In this document: piece by piece, positions 4,424 to 23,362 of the stretch
Numbering within the stretch: the stretch's first letter is position 1
Layout of the letters: each line of letters begins with the position of its first letter
Assembly: GCF_002993965.1 (NCBI RefSeq)
Contig: NZ_POST01000002.1
Location: 206,399-240,084, forward strand
Length of the DNA stretch: 33,686 nucleotides
Direction of reading: 5' to 3'
From: Apilactobacillus timberlakei
GTDB taxonomy: Bacteria; Bacillota; Bacilli; Lactobacillales; Lactobacillaceae
Translations under genes and position numbers: made by a program
The notes under the pieces: model-generated
Databases searched by the model: none
The model's input: only the letters and a program-made list of their open reading frames with translations
What the model was told of the DNA's origin: nothing

Positions 4424-4468
4424 AAAAAGATGCTCATTAGAACAATTATTTCTAATGAGCATCTTTTT
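4424..4468 (+). terminator. Strong rho-independent terminator of rqcH
   Basis: GATGCTCATTAGAA and its exact complement form a 14-bp stem with a 7-base loop. The stem is extended by an A-run on the left and a T-run on the right, starting 6 bases after the rqcH stop. The flanking A and T runs mean it could also act on the minus strand for carB readthrough. Confidence 0.9.
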
Positions 4469-4672: not shown

Positions 4673-7168
4673 CTATTCATTTAATCTGAATTTTAATTTA
4701 GCACCAATCTCTTGTGAACTATTACCATGATCAATGTGTATGTTTAATTGTTTAAACGGAAAGGTTGCACGCATAGTAGTAATTCGATTTTGATTAGTAT
4801 TTAATTTGTCAATAATTTTGCTATCAAACCTTTTAGTATAAAATTTAACGAGTTCACGAATCCAATTAATACCAGTTGCTTTACTTAAAAAGATTGTTTC
4901 AGTTAATCTTAATGGACGAATTCCTACATATTCTGATTCACCGTTATCTTTTTCGTTAAATAGTATCTGTACTAATCCAATCCAATTGGATTGATCAATG
5001 TGTGCAGATGCTTCTTTAATATTTTTTGTTAGTTGATAGTAATCAAGGCCTATATAAGGCATCTCATAATTAGTAACGTGATCCAAATCATTATTTAAAT
5101 TACTAATTAATTTTTCAGATGAAATAAAGTAGTTAGTATCATTAGTAACAAAGAAATTTAGTGCATAGCTTACATTTTTAGGTAAGATAACTCCTGTATC
5201 TTGATCAGGTGGTAATATTTGGACATTTAATTCAGTATATTTTTTTAACTGTTTCATTAAAAAGTGTCTATTACCAGGAACAAAAACACGGACAGGCTCT
5301 TCTAATTCAATAATATTTAAAATATCACCTAATTGGATAGGCTCAATGTATTGTTTATCACTAATTTGCGGTGACAATGATAAAGCATTAGGATTATTAT
5401 TCATTATTACTGTTTTATAACCTAATTTGTGTAATTGAATAAGCACTTCTGCTGTATAATAATCAGCTGCCGTATTAGGTCCTAATTTATTACCACCGCG
5501 ACCAATAACTAACGCAGTTTTTTGTGACTCTTTATGCGATTCATTTTCTTTTTCAAAACTACTATAAAAAGATTCTATATTTTGTTCTAATTCTCCAGCT
5601 GAAGATTCAATTGACTTATAGGTTGGATATTCATTATATTGATGATAAATATCACGTACCTTTTGGATAGGGATATTCCAAGTTTCAGCCATCATTCCAT
5701 CACCAAACCCAAATTGATGGGCATGCTCAATAGTATTTAGCTCCATAGGGTGATTAACAATTAACTTTTCAACATCCAATAATTTTTTTAATTTATAAAA
5801 ATAAAATTGATTTATTTTAGTTAACTCTTCTAAATCATCAACCTGGTATCCCCTTCTAATGGCTTCAATTAATACTAATAATCGATTTGATTGGGGATGA
5901 ATTAGTCTGTTAATTAGTTCATCATTATCGAGATTTTTCATGCTTGGGAGTACATCTCTAGGACTAAACTGAGAACTCCTTAGGGCTTTTAGCATAGCTT
6001 CCTCTACGGTTCTACCGACACCAATCGTTGATCCTACAGATTTCATTACGGTATTTAGTCTTTGACTAGCCTGTGGGATATTTTCAAATGGCCAAATAGG
6101 GATCTTAACTACTATATGGTCTAAGGACGGTTCCATAACGGCAGTTAAATGATTATACTTTTCCGGCAATTGAATTTCATTTAACTGTTTACCAAGCATT
6201 AAATTAGTACAAGTATAGACTAATGGATAACCAGTTGCTCTTGCAGAAAAAGCGGTACTTTGATTTACTAATGGATTAATCTTGGTTATAAAATATAGAT
6301 TATCTTTTGCACTTAAAGCAAATTGTAAGTGGCATACTCCTACAATATCAAGATTTTCCATAATTTTAAAAGTGGCCGTTCTTAAATTCTGATATTCAAT
6401 GTCAGTTAATGTCTGGATTGGAGATACAACAATTGAATCACCAGAATGTACACCAACAGCATCAACATTTTCTAATCCATTAACTAAAATCTTAGTACCA
6501 TTTTCATCCCTAATCCCTACCATTTCAATTTGTTTAAAACCCACAACACTTTTTTCAACTATACATTTTTTATTTTGTTCATCAAATGTATTTTCCAAAA
6601 AGTAAGATAATTCATCTGTATTTTTACATACTTTTCGTTTAACAGAATCTTTTTGATTAATTGGTTTAATTATAACGGGAAAACCAATTTGTCTAACTAC
6701 GTCAAATGCTTCAGATTCATTATTAACGATTTTAGATGGTATACATGGTTCATCCGATTGTTGAATTACTGTTTTCATTCGATTAGAATCATTAACTGTT
6801 TTTAATGCTGATTCTGATATCCCTAATACTTTAACATTCAAGTCTCTTAAGATACCTTGATTCATTAATTCCTGAGTAATATGAATGGCTCTTAAGCCAC
6901 CTACAGTGGGAATAATTGCATCTGGCTTTGATTTCTTAATTACTTCTAATACATTTTTCAAATTAATTTCTTTTACAAAAGTATTAGCAGATTGAATTTC
7001 AGTCATGGTTAAAGAGAATGGATTATTGTCCATAATTAAGGCTTTAATTCCATTTTTTTTAAGAGCAACCATCATTTGAAAAGCCGCAGAATCCAATTCA
7101 GTTTCATTGCCAATCGAAGATGGACCACTTCCAAGTATTAAGACTTTTTTTATTTCATTATTAAACAT
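4673..7168 (-). CDS. CarB-like protein, degenerate carbamoyl-phosphate synthetase large subunit
   Basis: The protein has 831 residues against about 1,060 for a working CarB. The order is recognisable: pre-ATP-grasp fold (7-120, GSGPSSIG), a first ATP-grasp (130-360), an oligomerisation-like part (to about 540), then a second pre-ATP-grasp fold (550-650, VIGRGGNKLGP). The first ATP-grasp has lost the glycine loop (usual TMGGSGGG; here 170-180 read INQKDSVKRKV). The metal ligand corresponding to E. coli Glu299 is Lys296, and Arg303 is Leu300; GVHSGDSI and Gln282 remain. The second ATP-grasp is shortened by roughly 100 residues, and its IEVNPR block reads VGIRPL. The C-terminal allosteric domain is reduced. 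It is a single open frame with a good SD formed by the last codons of carA. I infer no carbamoyl phosphate synthesis. A scaffold, sensor or regulator role is possible but unknown. Confidence 0.85.
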   Translation of the reverse strand: MFNNEIKKVLILGSGPSSIGNETELDSAAFQMMVALKKNGIKALIMDNNPFSLTMTEIQSANTFVKEINLKNVLEVIKKSKPDAIIPTVGGLRAIHITQELMNQGILRDLNVKVLGISESALKTVNDSNRMKTVIQQSDEPCIPSKIVNNESEAFDVVRQIGFPVIIKPINQKDSVKRKVCKNTDELSYFLENTFDEQNKKCIVEKSVVGFKQIEMVGIRDENGTKILVNGLENVDAVGVHSGDSIVVSPIQTLTDIEYQNLRTATFKIMENLDIVGVCHLQFALSAKDNLYFITKINPLVNQSTAFSARATGYPLVYTCTNLMLGKQLNEIQLPEKYNHLTAVMEPSLDHIVVKIPIWPFENIPQASQRLNTVMKSVGSTIGVGRTVEEAMLKALRSSQFSPRDVLPSMKNLDNDELINRLIHPQSNRLLVLIEAIRRGYQVDDLEELTKINQFYFYKLKKLLDVEKLIVNHPMELNTIEHAHQFGFGDGMMAETWNIPIQKVRDIYHQYNEYPTYKSIESSAGELEQNIESFYSSFEKENESHKESQKTALVIGRGGNKLGPNTAADYYTAEVLIQLHKLGYKTVIMNNNPNALSLSPQISDKQYIEPIQLGDILNIIELEEPVRVFVPGNRHFLMKQLKKYTELNVQILPPDQDTGVILPKNVSYALNFFVTNDTNYFISSEKLISNLNNDLDHVTNYEMPYIGLDYYQLTKNIKEASAHIDQSNWIGLVQILFNEKDNGESEYVGIRPLRLTETIFLSKATGINWIRELVKFYTKRFDSKIIDKLNTNQNRITTMRATFPFKQLNIHIDHGNSSQEIGAKLKFRLNE

Positions 7169-7173
7169 TTCAG

Positions 7174-8247
7174 TTATCTCCTTTGTGAGCTAACGTTTTC
7201 TAAAAATTCTTCAAATAAGTCAACAGTATCTTCAGGTCCGGGCCCACCATCTGGAGAAAATTGAACTGAAAATGAAGGGAAATCACGGTGTCTAATACCC
7301 TGGACAGTACCATTTACTAAATCAATAAAAGTTATTAATAATTGATCATGTTTAATTGATTTAGGATCGACTGCGTACCCTTGGCTTTGTGATGCATATA
7401 TAATTTGATTAGTGATAATTTGTCTAATGGGATGATTACTGCCATGATGCTCAACCTTTAATTTATAAGTTTCAGCACCGTTAGCTAACGCAAATAACTC
7501 GTGTCCCAACCCCATAGCAAACATTGGCAATTTTTCTTGGGTCTCTCTTATCATATTTAGTACTGACTCAGGTAAATCATTAGGCGAACCAGGACCGGTA
7601 GATAAAATTACTCCATCGGGATCTAAATCCATAATTTCCTTACTGCTTGTATTCCATGGCATTACAATAACGTTACAATCTAATTCAGCTAGACGGCGTA
7701 AGATGCCATATTTTAAGCCAAAGTCAATTAATATGATGTTATAGCCATCGCCTGTGTTAGGAAATGGTGCTTTGGTAGAAACCTGTTTTACCTGTTGATT
7801 AGTTAATACTGCTGCATTTAGTTGGTCAAAAGCATGTTCATCATTAACATCAACAATACTAGCCTTCATCGATTTATTTCTTCTAATACGGTGGGTTAAT
7901 TCTCTAGTATCAATCCCCGCAATGCCAGGGATGTTATGTTGTTTTAAAAAACGATCTAAAGTTAAATTGCCTAATCTATTTGTAGAAATATTAGAGTATT
8001 CACGCACAATGATTCCTTTTGCGTTGGTAATAATGGATTCAAAACTTTTATGGTTAATACCAGTATTCCCAATTGATGGCTGGGTAAAGGTAATAATTTG
8101 ATTATGATAAATTTGATTAGTAATAATTTCTTGATATCCTAACATATTTGAATTAACCACAATTTCACCTGTTGTAGTGGCTTGCGATCCAAATGCTTTA
8201 CCCTTGTAAGATGTCCCATCTTCTAATATTAAATAACGTGTTGCCAT
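7174..8247 (-). CDS. CarA-like protein, glutaminase-dead carbamoyl-phosphate synthetase small subunit
   Basis: This 357-residue protein has the standard CarA length and both domains: the small-subunit-specific N-terminal domain (GEIVVNSNMLGYQE, GIAGIDTRELT) and the class I glutamine amidotransferase domain (about 168-350, LSTGPGSP). The catalytic triad is gone. The nucleophile motif GICLGHQ reads AMGLGHE, with Gly246 for Cys. The QFHPEASPGP motif reads QFSPDGGPGP, with Ser331 for His and Asp333 for Glu. It therefore should not release ammonia from glutamine. It is followed after five bases by carB and preceded after 33 bases by pyrR, so it is cotranscribed with both. The surrounding fold residues are well kept, which argues for selection on structure rather than decay. 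Function unknown. Confidence 0.88.
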   Translation of the reverse strand: MATRYLILEDGTSYKGKAFGSQATTTGEIVVNSNMLGYQEIITNQIYHNQIITFTQPSIGNTGINHKSFESIITNAKGIIVREYSNISTNRLGNLTLDRFLKQHNIPGIAGIDTRELTHRIRRNKSMKASIVDVNDEHAFDQLNAAVLTNQQVKQVSTKAPFPNTGDGYNIILIDFGLKYGILRRLAELDCNVIVMPWNTSSKEIMDLDPDGVILSTGPGSPNDLPESVLNMIRETQEKLPMFAMGLGHELFALANGAETYKLKVEHHGSNHPIRQIITNQIIYASQSQGYAVDPKSIKHDQLLITFIDLVNGTVQGIRHRDFPSFSVQFSPDGGPGPEDTVDLFEEFLENVSSQRR

Positions 8248-8256
8248 AACATGCTC

Positions 8257-8274
8257 CTTAAATATATATTTAAG
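8257..8274. promoter_or_regulatory. Perfect palindrome overlapping the carA ribosome binding site
   Basis: CTTAAATATATATTTAAG is an exact 18-base palindrome in the pyrR-carA gap. On the minus strand its last bases are the start of the carA SD AAGGAG. It could form a weak hairpin that lowers carA translation relative to pyrR. It shows none of the conserved PyrR binding-loop sequence. Confidence 0.4.
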
Positions 8275-8280
8275 AATTAA

Positions 8281-8808
8281 TTACTTATCAATGATTTCTA
8301 CTGAATCTTTACCATCAATTTCATTAACTTGAACTTTAATTTTTTCAGTTCTAGATGTTGGAATATTTTTACCTACGAAATCTGCTCTAATTGGTAATTC
8401 ACGATGCCCACGGTCAATTAATACTGCTAAACGGATATTGTCAGGACGACCTAATTCTGAAATTGCAGAAAAAGCAGATTTAATAGTTCTACCTGTAAAT
8501 AAAACATCATCAACTAAGATTACATTTCTATTGTCTAAAGAAATTTTATCATCATCGGCAACTTTTGGATCATCAGCTGTATGTTTAACATCATCACGAT
8601 ATTTGGTTATATCTAGCTGCACTACTGGAACCTCTTTGTTTTCTAATTTTTGTAAACGATTAGCAATACGTTTTGCTAAGTAAACTCCACGGGTCTTAAT
8701 ACCTAAAATTACTAAGTTATTAACCCCTTTATTTTTTTCAATAATTTCATAAGTGATTCTAGTCAATGCACGTTGCATTGCCATTTTGTCTACTACAACT
8801 TTTGACAT
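8281..8808 (-). CDS. pyrR: PyrR, pyrimidine operon attenuator / uracil phosphoribosyltransferase
   Basis: The 175-residue protein is the usual PyrR length. PyrR binds UMP or UTP and then pyr mRNA to promote attenuation, and has weak uracil phosphoribosyltransferase activity. The family start [21 protein letters not shown] is present. The PRPP-binding loop [13 protein letters not shown] lies at residues 96-108, and [12 protein letters not shown] and [11 protein letters not shown], an RNA-contact region, are also there. It sits 17 bases after rluD and 33 before the carA-like gene, with no pyr biosynthetic genes next to it. No PyrR-responsive anti-antiterminator could be seen in its own leader or the pyrR-carA gap. 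A second PyrR may exist elsewhere in the genome; that cannot be judged here. Confidence 0.95.
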
Positions 8809-8825
8809 TAAATATATCCTCCTAA

Positions 8826-9734
8826 TTATTTTATACTATTTCTTAAATTATTAATTGTTTGTTTAAAAACTTTAGGCAGTGGTGCATCAAAAACCATTAA
8901 TTTACTAGTTTTAGGATGCTTAAATCCTAACTTAGCAGCGTGCAAAAATTGACCATTACCCTTAATTGTTTTTCTAGGCCCATATAATGGATCGCCAACT
9001 AAGGGATGTCCAATATATTTCATATGAACTCTAATTTGATGAGTGCGTCCAGTTTCTAACACGCATGATACTAATGTATATTCACCTAATCTTTCCAAGA
9101 CTTTAAAATGAGTTACAGCATGCTTACCATCATCTACAATAGCTTGCTTTTTTCGATCCTTTTTAGATCTTCCAATGGGCGCATCAATTTTACCTTTGTC
9201 TTCTTTAATATTTCCATGTACTAAAGCAACATATTCTCGAATATTACTCTTGGCTTTTAATTGTTCTGATAATGATTTGTGAGCATCATTATTTTTAGCA
9301 ATCATTAATAATCCTGATGTGTCTTTGTCAATTCGATGAACAATTCCTGGTCTAAAAGTACCATTAATATTGGACAAAGGGGTATGAAATAATAAAGCAT
9401 TTACTAAAGTATGATCAGGATGACCAGGTGAAGGGTGCACAACCATCCCTTGCGGTTTATTCACAACTAAGACGTCATTATCCTCATAAACGATATCTAA
9501 GGGAATATTTTCTGGCTCTAAATCTAATGTTTTAGGTTCTGGGATATTAATAACTACATTATCCCCTTGTTTTAAATCATATTTTGGCTTTTTTAATTCA
9601 TCATTCACCTTTACCATTTGTTCTTCAATTAAATTTTTTGCTCTTGAACGACTAATATCGTTAAAATGATTAGCAATTGATTTATCTAGTCTTTTATCGT
9701 TTTCGGTTGCACAAAATTCAAGTTTATTTTTAAT
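8826..9734 (-). CDS. rluD: RluD-type 23S rRNA pseudouridine synthase, apparent ATT start
   Basis: This enzyme isomerises uridine to pseudouridine in rRNA. The catalytic motif [16 protein letters not shown] holds the nucleophilic Asp, and [12 protein letters not shown] and VGDPLYG follow. From the first ATG (9617) the protein would be 263 residues and lack most of its S4 RNA-binding domain. The frame continues upstream without a stop and encodes a clear S4 domain ([24 protein letters not shown]). The upstream stop TAA is at 9737-9735. There is no ATG, GTG or TTG in between. The first codon after that stop, ATT at 9734, has GGTGA five bases upstream and overlaps the lspA stop as ATTAA. Using it gives 302 residues, the family length. 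The product is sure, the start inferred. Confidence 0.85.
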
Positions 9735-15017: not shown

Positions 15018-15414
15018 TGGTGTACATCCCTGTAAGCCATGTTTTGTGCTTCAAAATTAAGTCAGGCCTTTAAAATTTTGAAGTAGTAATCATCTATCTC
15101 AGAAACATAAGTTTCTCCCCCACACTTGGTTCAATTTCCGTGTGTGAAGCTCCCCTACCAAAGTTTGGGTTTCCCGCTCGAGGGGTTTACCGCGTTCCAC
15201 CAATATTGTTTCCAATATTGTATCGTCACTGTGGCACTTTCAGAAGTACTAAAGCATAGATAAATCCTTAGCTTTTTTCTTCGCCATTACTACATAAGTA
15301 GTCCCCCGGCTTATTTTTTCACCGAGCACGAACACTACAAGCATCGCAGCTTGTGCGAGAGTGGACTTTCCTCAGCCAACTTAAGCTGGCCGCGATTACT
15401 CAGGACATACACCA
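15018..15414 (-). ncRNA. rnpB: RNase P RNA, Bacillus (B) type
   Basis: The minus strand carries the hallmark conserved blocks: GAGGAAAGTCC near the 5' end, GTAGTGTTCGTGC, GAAAGTGCCACAGTGACG, GTGGAACGCGGTAAACCCC, CGAGCGGGAAACCCAAA, AGATAGATGATTACT, and the 3' ACAAAACATGGCTTACAG. The outer helix P1 is formed by GGTGTATG at the 5' end and the complementary TACACC at the 3' end, which sets the ends to within a few bases. Length of about 397 nt and the block order match type B ribozymes. It matures tRNA 5' ends with RnpA. It lies 26 bases after gpsB, so it may be transcribed from gpsB or from a promoter inside it. Confidence 0.97.
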
Positions 15415-20559: not shown

Positions 20560-23202
20560 CTAGAAATTATTAAATGTCCTTATTTCATTTTTACTATTTA
20601 TTTTAAACATTTTTATATGATTAGAGATCATATTTTTAATAGATTTCATACTACTTTCATTAATTAATGAAAAGTCATTTATTAAAATAACTCCCTTATT
20701 ATTTGATAGCTGGATAATATGTTTAATAGAATTTTTAATCATAAGATTATATAAATCCGTTAAGTTACCCTTGTCATTATACATATCACTAAAATTTATG
20801 CTTTGAACTATTAAACGATTTATTGATTTATTTATATTTCTTATAGCCATAAATAAATCATAATTACCAATAATTGTTGCACCTTTTGAATTGGTAAATT
20901 TTTTAATTATTTTATCTTTATTTCCATTAATTTTTTGACATAAAATTAATAAACTATCGTTTCCATTTTTCTTTATATTTTCATAAATTTCATCTATTTT
21001 TTCTTGAGTATTTGCCATAATAAATGTGTTGTTATTTTCAAGATCTAATGTATTTAAATCTATTTCTTTTTTGTTATTATTGTAAAAAATCTTATAATCA
21101 TTATTTAAATTAGTCTGATATGAACTTTTAATCATACTTGTATTATTATTATCTAACTCAAGCTTGTTTAAAATAAATTCTGATTTGTCTGATGAATAAA
21201 TTGCAGTATCCATGAACAAAATATTATTAAACAAAGTATAAATTTTGTTTTTTAATAAATCATCGTTTTTAATTAATCCACCTACTAAAGTACTATTATC
21301 AGCATTTTTATCTATATTTAAATAATTTTGAAAAGTTACTTTTTTATCCATATAAACAAGGTTTTTAATTAATAAAATATTATTATTAAAGAATTTATTA
21401 AGATTAAAAATACGGTCATTAAAAGTTGTTATAATAGCTTTTTCACTACTCTTTAAGCTGTCATTATTTTTAATAATATTTTTAGATAATGATCTTATTT
21501 GCTTAATTAATGAAGACTGTTTATCAATATATTCTTTATTGATTTTGATAAAATTAAAAAGCTCAATATTGTTAATTGGATTTTTAAAGCCTTTTTTTAA
21601 GGTAATAAAGTTTTGCTTATTTATAAATAATTCTTCAAAACTCTTTTGTAGTTTCAATGAATAATTTTCATATTCTTTAATTAATGAATCTATATTTTGT
21701 ACTAATTTTATGGTTGATTTATCATTCTGAAAAATATTATATAAGTTTTGATTATGAGTTTGATATAAAAGATATTGAGCATGACGAATTAAAATATTGT
21801 TTTGATTAATTTTAAAATTAACACGATAATGCTTTAATATTTGTTTATTAAAATTAACAGCATCTTTGATAACTAAGTATGGTTTATACTTTGCTAGCAT
21901 ATGACGATTATTATATAAATACTCATGTGAAATAACTACTACATTTGAATTATTAAAATCATTCTTTAATTTATTCATGTAGTACCCCTTATTGTTAGTA
22001 TTACCAATAGTTTTTAGGAACACATTTTGATCATTTTTCATATCCAAATTTAGCTCATGTAGATCACCAGTTTTAGTGAAAGTTAACCAAATTAAAATTT
22101 TACATTTTAAAAATTCGGTTCGTTTAGAATTACTTTTAATATTTAAGGCGTCTCTAAATTTATTTAGATCTATATAATCATCTATTGAATGTAAAACTAA
22201 ATTTTTAAAATTATTTTTTGTTATTTTATTGATTCTATTAATTGTTTTAGATAAGTCTTCATGAATTGAATGTTTATGAACTGCAACAACTATTTTATTT
22301 TCATTATTTAATAAATGGACTAAAGGAAATAAGAATCCTAAATTGTAATCTAACTCATTATTTTGTTCTACCAATAAATTTTTTGAATTATCACTATTTT
22401 TATAATTATCATAAATAGAATTCATAAGTTTACTTTCTTCAGAGTTCCATTTATATACCCCATTAAGTATATTTTTTTGTTGACCTTTACTTTCAGGATA
22501 ATTTATTTTCCTTATTTTCAATCTTTCTTGATATTGAATCTTTCTTATTTTTAGTCGATTAATATCCAATAATTTGTCATTAAACATATCTGTATTCTTT
22601 TTATATGCATATTTAAAAACATCGATTGTATTTTTAGGCAATGTTGGATTTATTGATATTAATTGCTTAATAGTTTTTTTAGGAATCTTTTCAATTTGAT
22701 TAAATAAAATTATTAATAATTTTGCTGTGGCAAAAGCATCACTACTAGAAGAATGAGGATGTTGATGTAAAATGTTTAAATTTTGACTTAGGTCAATTAG
22801 TCGATAACTTTTTTCTGTTGGTAATAATAATTGACTTAAAGTAACAGTATCAATTGCCATGTTATCCATCATCTTTTGTCCTACTCTATCCAATTCTTTA
22901 TTGATAAATGGAAAATCAAAATCTACATTATGAGCAACAAAAACAGTATCTTTTAGCAATGAAGAAATTTTACTTGCAAATTCATTAAAAGTAGGAGCAT
23001 TTTTAACTAATTCATTTGTTATTCCTGTTAACTTTGTTATGTCACTAGGTATATCCATTTCTGGATTTATAAATGAATTAAATGATCCAATAATATTTTT
23101 ATTTCTAACAAATGTACAACTAAATTGGATTATACGATTGTCGTTCGATTGACTAGTTCCAGTAGTTTCAATATCTACTACTGAAAAAATTGTACTACTC
23201 AT
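20560..23202 (-). CDS. dinG: DinG-like protein: DEDDh exonuclease with a degenerate helicase half
   Basis: The protein has 880 residues. The exonuclease domain (1-170) is intact: Asp10 and Glu12 in VVDIETTG, Asp94 in AHNVDFDF, and His150/Asp155 in HPHSSSSDA. The helicase half (about 235-880) keeps DinG length and secondary-structure landmarks but has lost its motifs. Walker A (usual EAGTGTGKT) reads EQNNELDYN at about 279-287. DEAH reads KDAV at 446-449. The C-terminal QxxGRxIR motif reads HIIQLSNNKG. Lys/Asn/Ile content is unusually high. The TTG at 23217 overlaps the SD GGTGG; ATG at 23202 is the better start. Staphylococcus aureus DinG is known to work as a nuclease rather than a helicase. 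Here the ATPase itself appears lost. Confidence 0.9.
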   Translation of the reverse strand: MSSTIFSVVDIETTGTSQSNDNRIIQFSCTFVRNKNIIGSFNSFINPEMDIPSDITKLTGITNELVKNAPTFNEFASKISSLLKDTVFVAHNVDFDFPFINKELDRVGQKMMDNMAIDTVTLSQLLLPTEKSYRLIDLSQNLNILHQHPHSSSSDAFATAKLLIILFNQIEKIPKKTIKQLISINPTLPKNTIDVFKYAYKKNTDMFNDKLLDINRLKIRKIQYQERLKIRKINYPESKGQQKNILNGVYKWNSEESKLMNSIYDNYKNSDNSKNLLVEQNNELDYNLGFLFPLVHLLNNENKIVVAVHKHSIHEDLSKTINRINKITKNNFKNLVLHSIDDYIDLNKFRDALNIKSNSKRTEFLKCKILIWLTFTKTGDLHELNLDMKNDQNVFLKTIGNTNNKGYYMNKLKNDFNNSNVVVISHEYLYNNRHMLAKYKPYLVIKDAVNFNKQILKHYRVNFKINQNNILIRHAQYLLYQTHNQNLYNIFQNDKSTIKLVQNIDSLIKEYENYSLKLQKSFEELFINKQNFITLKKGFKNPINNIELFNFIKINKEYIDKQSSLIKQIRSLSKNIIKNNDSLKSSEKAIITTFNDRIFNLNKFFNNNILLIKNLVYMDKKVTFQNYLNIDKNADNSTLVGGLIKNDDLLKNKIYTLFNNILFMDTAIYSSDKSEFILNKLELDNNNTSMIKSSYQTNLNNDYKIFYNNNKKEIDLNTLDLENNNTFIMANTQEKIDEIYENIKKNGNDSLLILCQKINGNKDKIIKKFTNSKGATIIGNYDLFMAIRNINKSINRLIVQSINFSDMYNDKGNLTDLYNLMIKNSIKHIIQLSNNKGVILINDFSLINESSMKSIKNMISNHIKMFKINSKNEIRTFNNF

Positions 23203-23362
23203 TATTGTATCCACCAATCTTTGCTTTAATCATTAATATTAATGATACTACATTTTACCAATTATTATCTATTTTTTGGGTAACTCAAATAAATAATTTA
23301 AGTCATTTTTATTATATTAATTATATGATAATATTATTATTAAGAGAAAGTGAGCGATAATA

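Follow-up and report, generated by a model that had tools for sequence, protein, structure and literature searches.

A predicted two-subunit pseudo-carbamoyl-phosphate synthetase conserved beside a PyrR2-type pyrR in the Lactobacillaceae

The stretch of Apilactobacillus timberlakei DNA analyzed here, 33,686 nucleotides long and called the window below, carries on its minus strand a pyrR gene followed by two genes, carA* and carB*, which, judged by the residues they have lost, encode a two-subunit pseudo-carbamoyl-phosphate synthetase whose catalytic centres are gone from both subunits. The pair belongs to the carbamoyl-phosphate synthetase (CPSase) superfamily by descent and fold (homology, fold comparison and a CarA tree), both genes are under strong purifying selection, and a conserved non-catalytic function for CarA*-CarB* is quite probable. 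The reading that we favour, at a probability of roughly 0.4, is that this pseudo-CPSase would act as a non-catalytic ligand sensor or receptor together with a PyrR of the PyrR2 type. The three genes are listed here; throughout, G labels genomes (G000 is the A. timberlakei source genome), g labels sampled genera and L labels fetched loci.

8281 to 8808, minus strand: pyrR, 175 amino acids, a match to NF003548, on the PyrR2 side by tree and by its LPIRADF signature
7174 to 8247, minus strand: carA*, 357 amino acids, CarA fold with a dead glutaminase site
4673 to 7168, minus strand: carB*, 831 amino acids, CarB fold to about E. coli residue 925, MGS allosteric domain absent

Residues are numbered by the positions that we take to be the catalytic sites of E. 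coli CarA and CarB. In the window, CarA* carries C269G, Q273E and H353S, resulting in the loss of the glutaminase site, and CarB* carries R129S, R169K, G175D, G176S, E299K and R303L, with loss of the carboxyphosphate site and the glycine loop; its second ATP-grasp site is gutted and its C-terminal allosteric domain is missing. The main alignment holds 87 CarA* and 86 CarB* rows (the named loci supply 79 and 78 of them, the window one each and further genomes 7; at least one row, L089, duplicates the named genome L198). In it, C269G and the loss of H353 are found in 87/87 CarA* rows and Q273E in 85/87. In the first ATP-grasp site of CarB*, R129 and R303 are lost and E299 is replaced by lysine in 86/86 rows, R169K is present in 85/86, and the glycine-loop residues G175 and G176 are each kept in just 2 of the 86. 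The second half of CarB* shows E841G in 85/86 and R848T in 84/86 rows, its second ATP-grasp columns are deleted or replaced, and the columns of K954, T974 and T977 are absent throughout (86/86). Across a broad alignment of 35 CarA*/CarB* pairs from 21 genera, C269G, the loss of H353, the change of E299 to lysine or arginine and the loss of R303 hold in 35/35 pairs; R129 is lost in 34/35 (one far row keeps it), G179R is present in 34/35, and R169 survives in 9 of the 18 far rows and in 1 of the 17 near ones.

Each feature by which an active glutamine-hydrolysing CPSase would be recognized, that is, a CarA glutaminase, the first and second CarB ATP-grasp sites and the allosteric domain, is missing, and the two intact ATP-grasp sites that mark an ammonia-dependent CPSase are missing from CarB* as well. 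Compared with E. coli CarAB, CarA*-CarB* lacks the glutaminase Cys-His, an intact carboxyphosphate or carbamoyl-phosphate site and the MGS domain. Human CPS1 is an ammonia-dependent CPSase that has naturally lost the glutaminase nucleophile, with both ATP-grasp sites working, whereas in CarB* both are dead. An earlier reading of the letters of the window (the sequence-only reading) had seen linked loss of function in both subunits with open frames, and this is borne out: residues are lost from CarA* and from CarB*, and the frames of all three genes are open. The strong conservation of both subunits and of the new residues, on a CPSase body that has been kept, would also suit a new enzyme with a gained catalytic activity. 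This is improbable, however, as the glutaminase nucleophile and histidine are lost in 87/87 rows, the E299 metal ligand, R129 and the glycine loop are gone, the second ATP-grasp site is largely deleted, and no other catalytic motif was recognized, a systematic motif search being no part of this analysis.

The CPSase body, including the oligomerisation domain of CarB*, is retained. CarA* passes the model for glutamine-hydrolysing CarA, TIGR01368 (375.6 bits against a cut-off of 307.35), and its predicted structure (pLDDT 77) matches E. coli CarA with a TMq of 0.90; CarB* falls below the TIGR01369 cut-off (547 versus 1027 bits, with model positions 4-647 of 1052 matched), and its predicted structure aligns with E. 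coli CarB only up to residue 925. In a tree of 30 rows from 21 genera, CarA* forms one clade with support of 100/100 (the bootstrap is not fully settled), separate from the arginine-type CPSase, and a 26-row tree agrees. Based on these trees, the main CarA* form arose once within the Lactobacillaceae.

Four more genera (g15, g22, g23 and g33) have, at the same genomic place, a CPSase that is dead in part or in full. The gene order is pyrR-uraA-carA-carB in g15, g22 and g23, and uraA-carA-carB in g33, where the genes reach the contig end and pyrR is out of view. The graded CPSase of g22 has a dead glutaminase and a dead second half, keeps every tested residue of the first half, and might be a bicarbonate-dependent ATPase only; that of g33 keeps C269. 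The graded rows are scattered in the CarA tree, and a single clade uniting them with the main CarA* is neither recovered nor rejected (p 0.08 in the approximately unbiased test). These partly dead CPSases comprise loci L298, L299, L300, L301 and L302, beside uraA and, where visible, pyrR.

Conservation in sister species had been set beforehand as a refutation test, and CarB* was found in 16/16 Apilactobacillus genomes, 62-100% identical and with zero internal stops. A profile of its C-terminal part found CarB* in 93/397 family genomes and 8/40 genera, a count that is too low because divergent CarB* escaped the threshold of E 1e-20. The apparent restriction to 8 genera was wrong: inspection of the surroundings of PyrR genes and of motif hits added g2, g3, g5, g6, g7, g8, g17, g19, g20, g24, g28, g38 and g39 and places the module in 21/40 sampled Lactobacillaceae genera, about half. 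The carriers number at least 169/397 family genomes, consisting of 93 by profile, 68 by motif and 8 read by hand. The 68 are what remains of 87 motif genomes after removal of 17 overlapping ones and of 2 chance hits, G122 (g15) and G267 (g12), near which car genes are absent, and 11 of the 68 loci were read; this family scan demanded a glycine before [IM]GLGHE, and the window's own type, with alanine, therefore escaped it. An order-wide motif scan of 198 Lactobacillales genomes hit 9/26 Lactobacillaceae and 0/172 genomes of other families, and understates the spread since true members such as G065 escape it.

The named scan yielded 79 loci (80 of 81 matches kept), the titles of which are all Lactobacillaceae and include Apilactobacillus, Lentilactobacillus, Levilactobacillus (including L. 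brevis), Secundilactobacillus, Fructilactobacillus, Philodulcilactobacillus and others. A CarA* with GLGH is present in 79/79 of these loci, a pattern search recovered a PyrR frame in 77/79, and a full CarB* frame is present in 78/79; a search for one in the remaining locus, L215, found none. An internal TAA reported in the CarB* match of G131 is probably the gene's own stop, and a full frame of 863 amino acids is present there.

The ratio of nonsynonymous to synonymous substitution rates (dN/dS) was computed by the Nei-Gojobori method for 21 chosen pairs, in which dS is often above 1. It ranges from 0.013 to 0.103 for carB* (16/21 pairs computable), from 0.005 to 0.044 for carA* (19/21 pairs computable) and from 0 to 0.110 for pyrR (19 pairs). 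Between L. brevis CD0817 and L. suantsaiihabitans the values are 0.020 for carB* and 0.018 for carA*, and between G003 and A. apinorum 0.082 and 0.037; pairs that include a genome without another CarB fall inside the overall carB* and carA* ranges. That the two genes are decaying, functionless relics is consequently scarcely credible. Every catalytic site is gone, losses are graded in g15, g22, g23 and g33, and the full CarB* frame is lacking in L215 and interrupted in one Limosilactobacillus fermentum record, as relics would have it, but the low dN/dS, the full CarB* frames of the other 78 named loci, the fixed replacement residues and the ribosome-binding sites kept in the window all argue against decay. 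Recent decay, which the sequence-only reading had allowed for, is ruled out by the family-wide conservation, the fixed replacements and the dN/dS of 0.005-0.10.

A second, intact CPSase, for which the sequence-only reading had advised a search, is present in the source genome: its CarB, at C1:294629-297766, scores 1508.9 bits and sits in a pyrB-pyrC-carA-carB-pyrD run (our gene labels). A second CarB match occurs in 14/16 genus genomes, with frames of 1056-1070 amino acids in 13 and a match cut by the contig end in one. Together with the retained fold and oligomerisation domain, this would fit a further proposal of that reading, that the two inactive subunits modulate a live CPSase by entering mixed assemblies with it. 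Fifty carriers were chosen across the genera known at that stage, and PyrB is over its cut-off in 30 and not in 20; 19 of these 20 were tested, G387 being omitted for a partial PyrB match, and the comparison covers PyrB among the pathway steps. In 18/19 PyrB-less carriers a search at E 1e-100 recovered CarB* as the only CarB, and G071 has another CarB over the cut-off. In G106, PyrB is present and CarB* is the only CarB found, and its aspartate transcarbamoylase would therefore need carbamoyl phosphate from another source. As to assembly quality, G011 and G354 are less than 90% complete (G354 88%), and G003, G028 and G048, each assembled into one contig, reach 99%. Because CarB* is the sole CarB found in 18/19 PyrB-less carriers, mixed assembly with a live CPSase is not the general function, and as an explanation of the pair it is very unlikely, although it could be a side role where both CPSases occur.

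The association with PyrR rests on gene order and on the type of PyrR. The sequence-only reading had placed the degenerate pair next to pyrR, and the pair is indeed there. Moreover, the order lspA-rluD-pyrR-carA*-carB* is kept in 40/40 loci fetched from the C-terminal-profile hits, of which 4 are from the window's own genus and 36 are spread over the other seven genera. The window pyrR is the sole PyrR match in G000 (E 1e-25) and is over the NCBIfam cut-off (NF003548, 256.6 versus 218 bits). In the PyrR tree, for which the PyrR of L138, L198 and L282 were not picked up, one branch (support 95/83, 96% of bootstraps) separates 39 module-linked PyrRs from 13 others, and the signature LPIRADF in 39/39 module-linked PyrRs stands against LPIRPDF in 11/13 others. 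A PyrR of this PyrR2 side adjoins the pair in most of the genera read. The window PyrR, a PyrR by model, falls on the module-linked side together with the second PyrR of g38. In the three g38 genomes read, of 2.6-3.7 Mb, there are two CPSases and two PyrRs 63-65% identical, one heading an ordinary pyr operon and the other in lspA-rluD-pyrR-carA*-carB*. Taken together, PyrR could well be the partner of CarA*-CarB*, at somewhat under even odds.

Judged by its genome sizes and its pairs of PyrRs and CPSases, the g38 genus is probably Lactiplantibacillus and its module-linked PyrR probably L. plantarum PyrR2. According to PMC3582564, L. plantarum PyrR2 is reported to respond to inorganic carbon, and PMC7911632 lists pyrR2 as lp_1782. 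It is through this reading of the second g38 PyrR as PyrR2 that the window module is linked to inorganic carbon. The PyrR RNA element (RF00515) gives three matches in G000, two over the cut-off, before pyrB, pyrF and uraA, and a search of the window for it found none. In 15/19 PyrB-less carriers, 30 of whose 46 matches were read, the element precedes uraA or a deoxyribosyltransferase-like/permease-like pair (our labels).

If the favoured reading holds, the CarA*-CarB* complex would use the retained CPSase body as a receptor that no longer catalyses. What was the carboxyphosphate/ATP pocket carries two nearly fixed extra basic residues, lysine or arginine for E299, the former metal-binding acid, and arginine for G179 of the former glycine loop. 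A pocket so altered would accommodate a ligand that is anionic or phosphorylated and free of metal; bicarbonate, a nucleotide and carbamoyl phosphate are candidates. Whether the ligand is bound would be signalled to PyrR, and uracil uptake and pyrimidine gene expression would then shift with the supply of inorganic carbon or nitrogen. Inorganic carbon or carbamoyl phosphate is itself an unlikely cue, and it is likewise doubtful, to about the same degree, that PyrR2-CarA*-CarB* is the system by which lactobacilli sense inorganic carbon (or carbamoyl phosphate), with a receptor derived from a CPSase informing the RNA-binding regulator of the bicarbonate supply, and that it underlies the CO2-dependent growth known in L. 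plantarum.

Several observations weigh against a partnership with PyrR. The genera g3 (G017) and g6 (G020, G059) keep lspA-rluD-CarA*-CarB* at the locus without pyrR, and their PyrR, which is of the other type, lies at a different place in the genome; L. fermentum DR9 also keeps the pair at the locus without pyrR. G003, G035 and G354 have the module and no credible PyrR RNA element: a search of G354 (88% complete) found none, and G003 and G035 have one weak element each (E 0.0052 and 0.0046), whose flanking genes lie on the other strand. The best element of G048 precedes another transporter-like gene, and the genus identity of g38 is itself an inference. Given the pyrR-less loci and the other-type PyrRs, linkage to PyrR is not obligatory, and the position may survive from an earlier pyr operon. 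There is a substantial, if smaller, chance that the complex is functional and non-catalytic but independent of PyrR, its shared place being what remains of an ancestral pyr operon, consistent with the ordinary pyr operons at the same place in g13 and g23; the pyrR directly upstream in all 40 loci of the first survey and the split of module-linked PyrRs from the others speak for the favoured reading instead. Of the earlier claims, co-occurrence of the pair with pyrR therefore stands as a prevailing order with exceptions, and tuning of PyrR by the pair is favoured by that order and by the PyrR branch and opposed by the pyrR-less loci and the three carriers without a credible RNA element.

The DR9 locus has two further peculiarities. 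Its CarB* is interrupted (L303 6300-9100), in a record filed as a 760-kb plasmid that yet has genes resembling lspA and rluD, and the CarB* region is immediately followed by an alpha-type carbonic anhydrase gene (PF00194; L303 9084-9719, minus strand). A tblastn search of all other fetched loci found no carbonic anhydrase near other modules, leaving DR9 as the single case.

In the window, each ATG of the three genes is preceded by a Shine-Dalgarno-like site, and the intergenic gaps are 17 bases between rluD and pyrR, 33 between pyrR and carA* and 5 between carA* and carB*; judged from these short gaps, pyrR-carA*-carB* probably form a single transcript. Genes like lspA and rluD lie upstream, labels matched by the names signal peptidase II and RluA family in the DR9 record, and a gene like fbpA/rqcH converges with carB*. 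The further features of the locus are:

8826 to 9617, minus strand: rluD-like gene upstream of pyrR (our label), its true start possibly further upstream
8818 to 8823, minus strand: Shine-Dalgarno-like AGGAGG of pyrR, by sequence reading
8254 to 8259, minus strand: Shine-Dalgarno-like AAGGAG of carA*, by sequence reading
7178 to 7183, minus strand: Shine-Dalgarno-like AAGGAG of carB*, by sequence reading
4424 to 4468, strand unassigned (reported on the plus strand): near-symmetric terminator-like hairpin of 19 pairs, between carB* and the convergent fbpA/rqcH-like gene

Hairpins of this last kind are near chance, with 3 found versus 2.2 expected in shuffles. Elsewhere in the window, a tetrahydrofolate riboswitch (RF01831, 67.5 bits) at 1509-1601 on the minus strand lies upstream of a gene at 899-1492 that resembles an energy-coupling factor S component (our label) and is presumably a folate transporter, and a class B RNase P RNA (RF00011, 339.7 bits) is found at 15028-15407, minus strand. 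An 885-amino-acid protein encoded at 20560-23217, minus strand, in a stretch of 19-23% GC, has an N-terminal RNase_T exonuclease domain. In a Pfam scan of this protein, helicase families all fell short of E 1e-5; ordinary DinG carries a helicase part, unlike this protein, which is perhaps DinG-like with a degenerate one.

A conserved, catalytically dead paralogue has a counterpart in the same pathway: the aspartate transcarbamoylase of Pseudomonas contains an inactive dihydroorotase-like subunit, PyrC', as a structural part of the active enzyme. Unlike PyrC', CarA* and CarB* are both dead, and an active partner is often not found. The operon name used in the L. plantarum PyrR2 study, pyrR1BCAa1Ab1DFE, reportedly implies that its authors knew of second Aa/Ab genes, and that L. 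plantarum has the pair may already be in print. The literature searched yielded no description of a dead CPSase next to PyrR, and the word carbamoyl is absent from PMC3766115; the J. Bacteriol. article on PyrR2 may mention the adjacent genes. In the portion of the PyrR2 literature available, PyrR2 is named as a regulator alone, with no role for an adjacent dead CPSase.

Roughly half of the genera sampled from this family, a major one in food and in the gut, retain a dead version of a central enzyme. As CarA* passes the curated model, and as the DR9 record names its CarA* carbamoyl phosphate synthase small subunit, species may look able to make carbamoyl phosphate and may not be. If the pair is a sensor, it would offer a concrete explanation, open to testing, of how lactobacilli control pyrimidine genes and depend on CO2 for growth, and an example of an entire two-subunit enzyme converted to a receptor.

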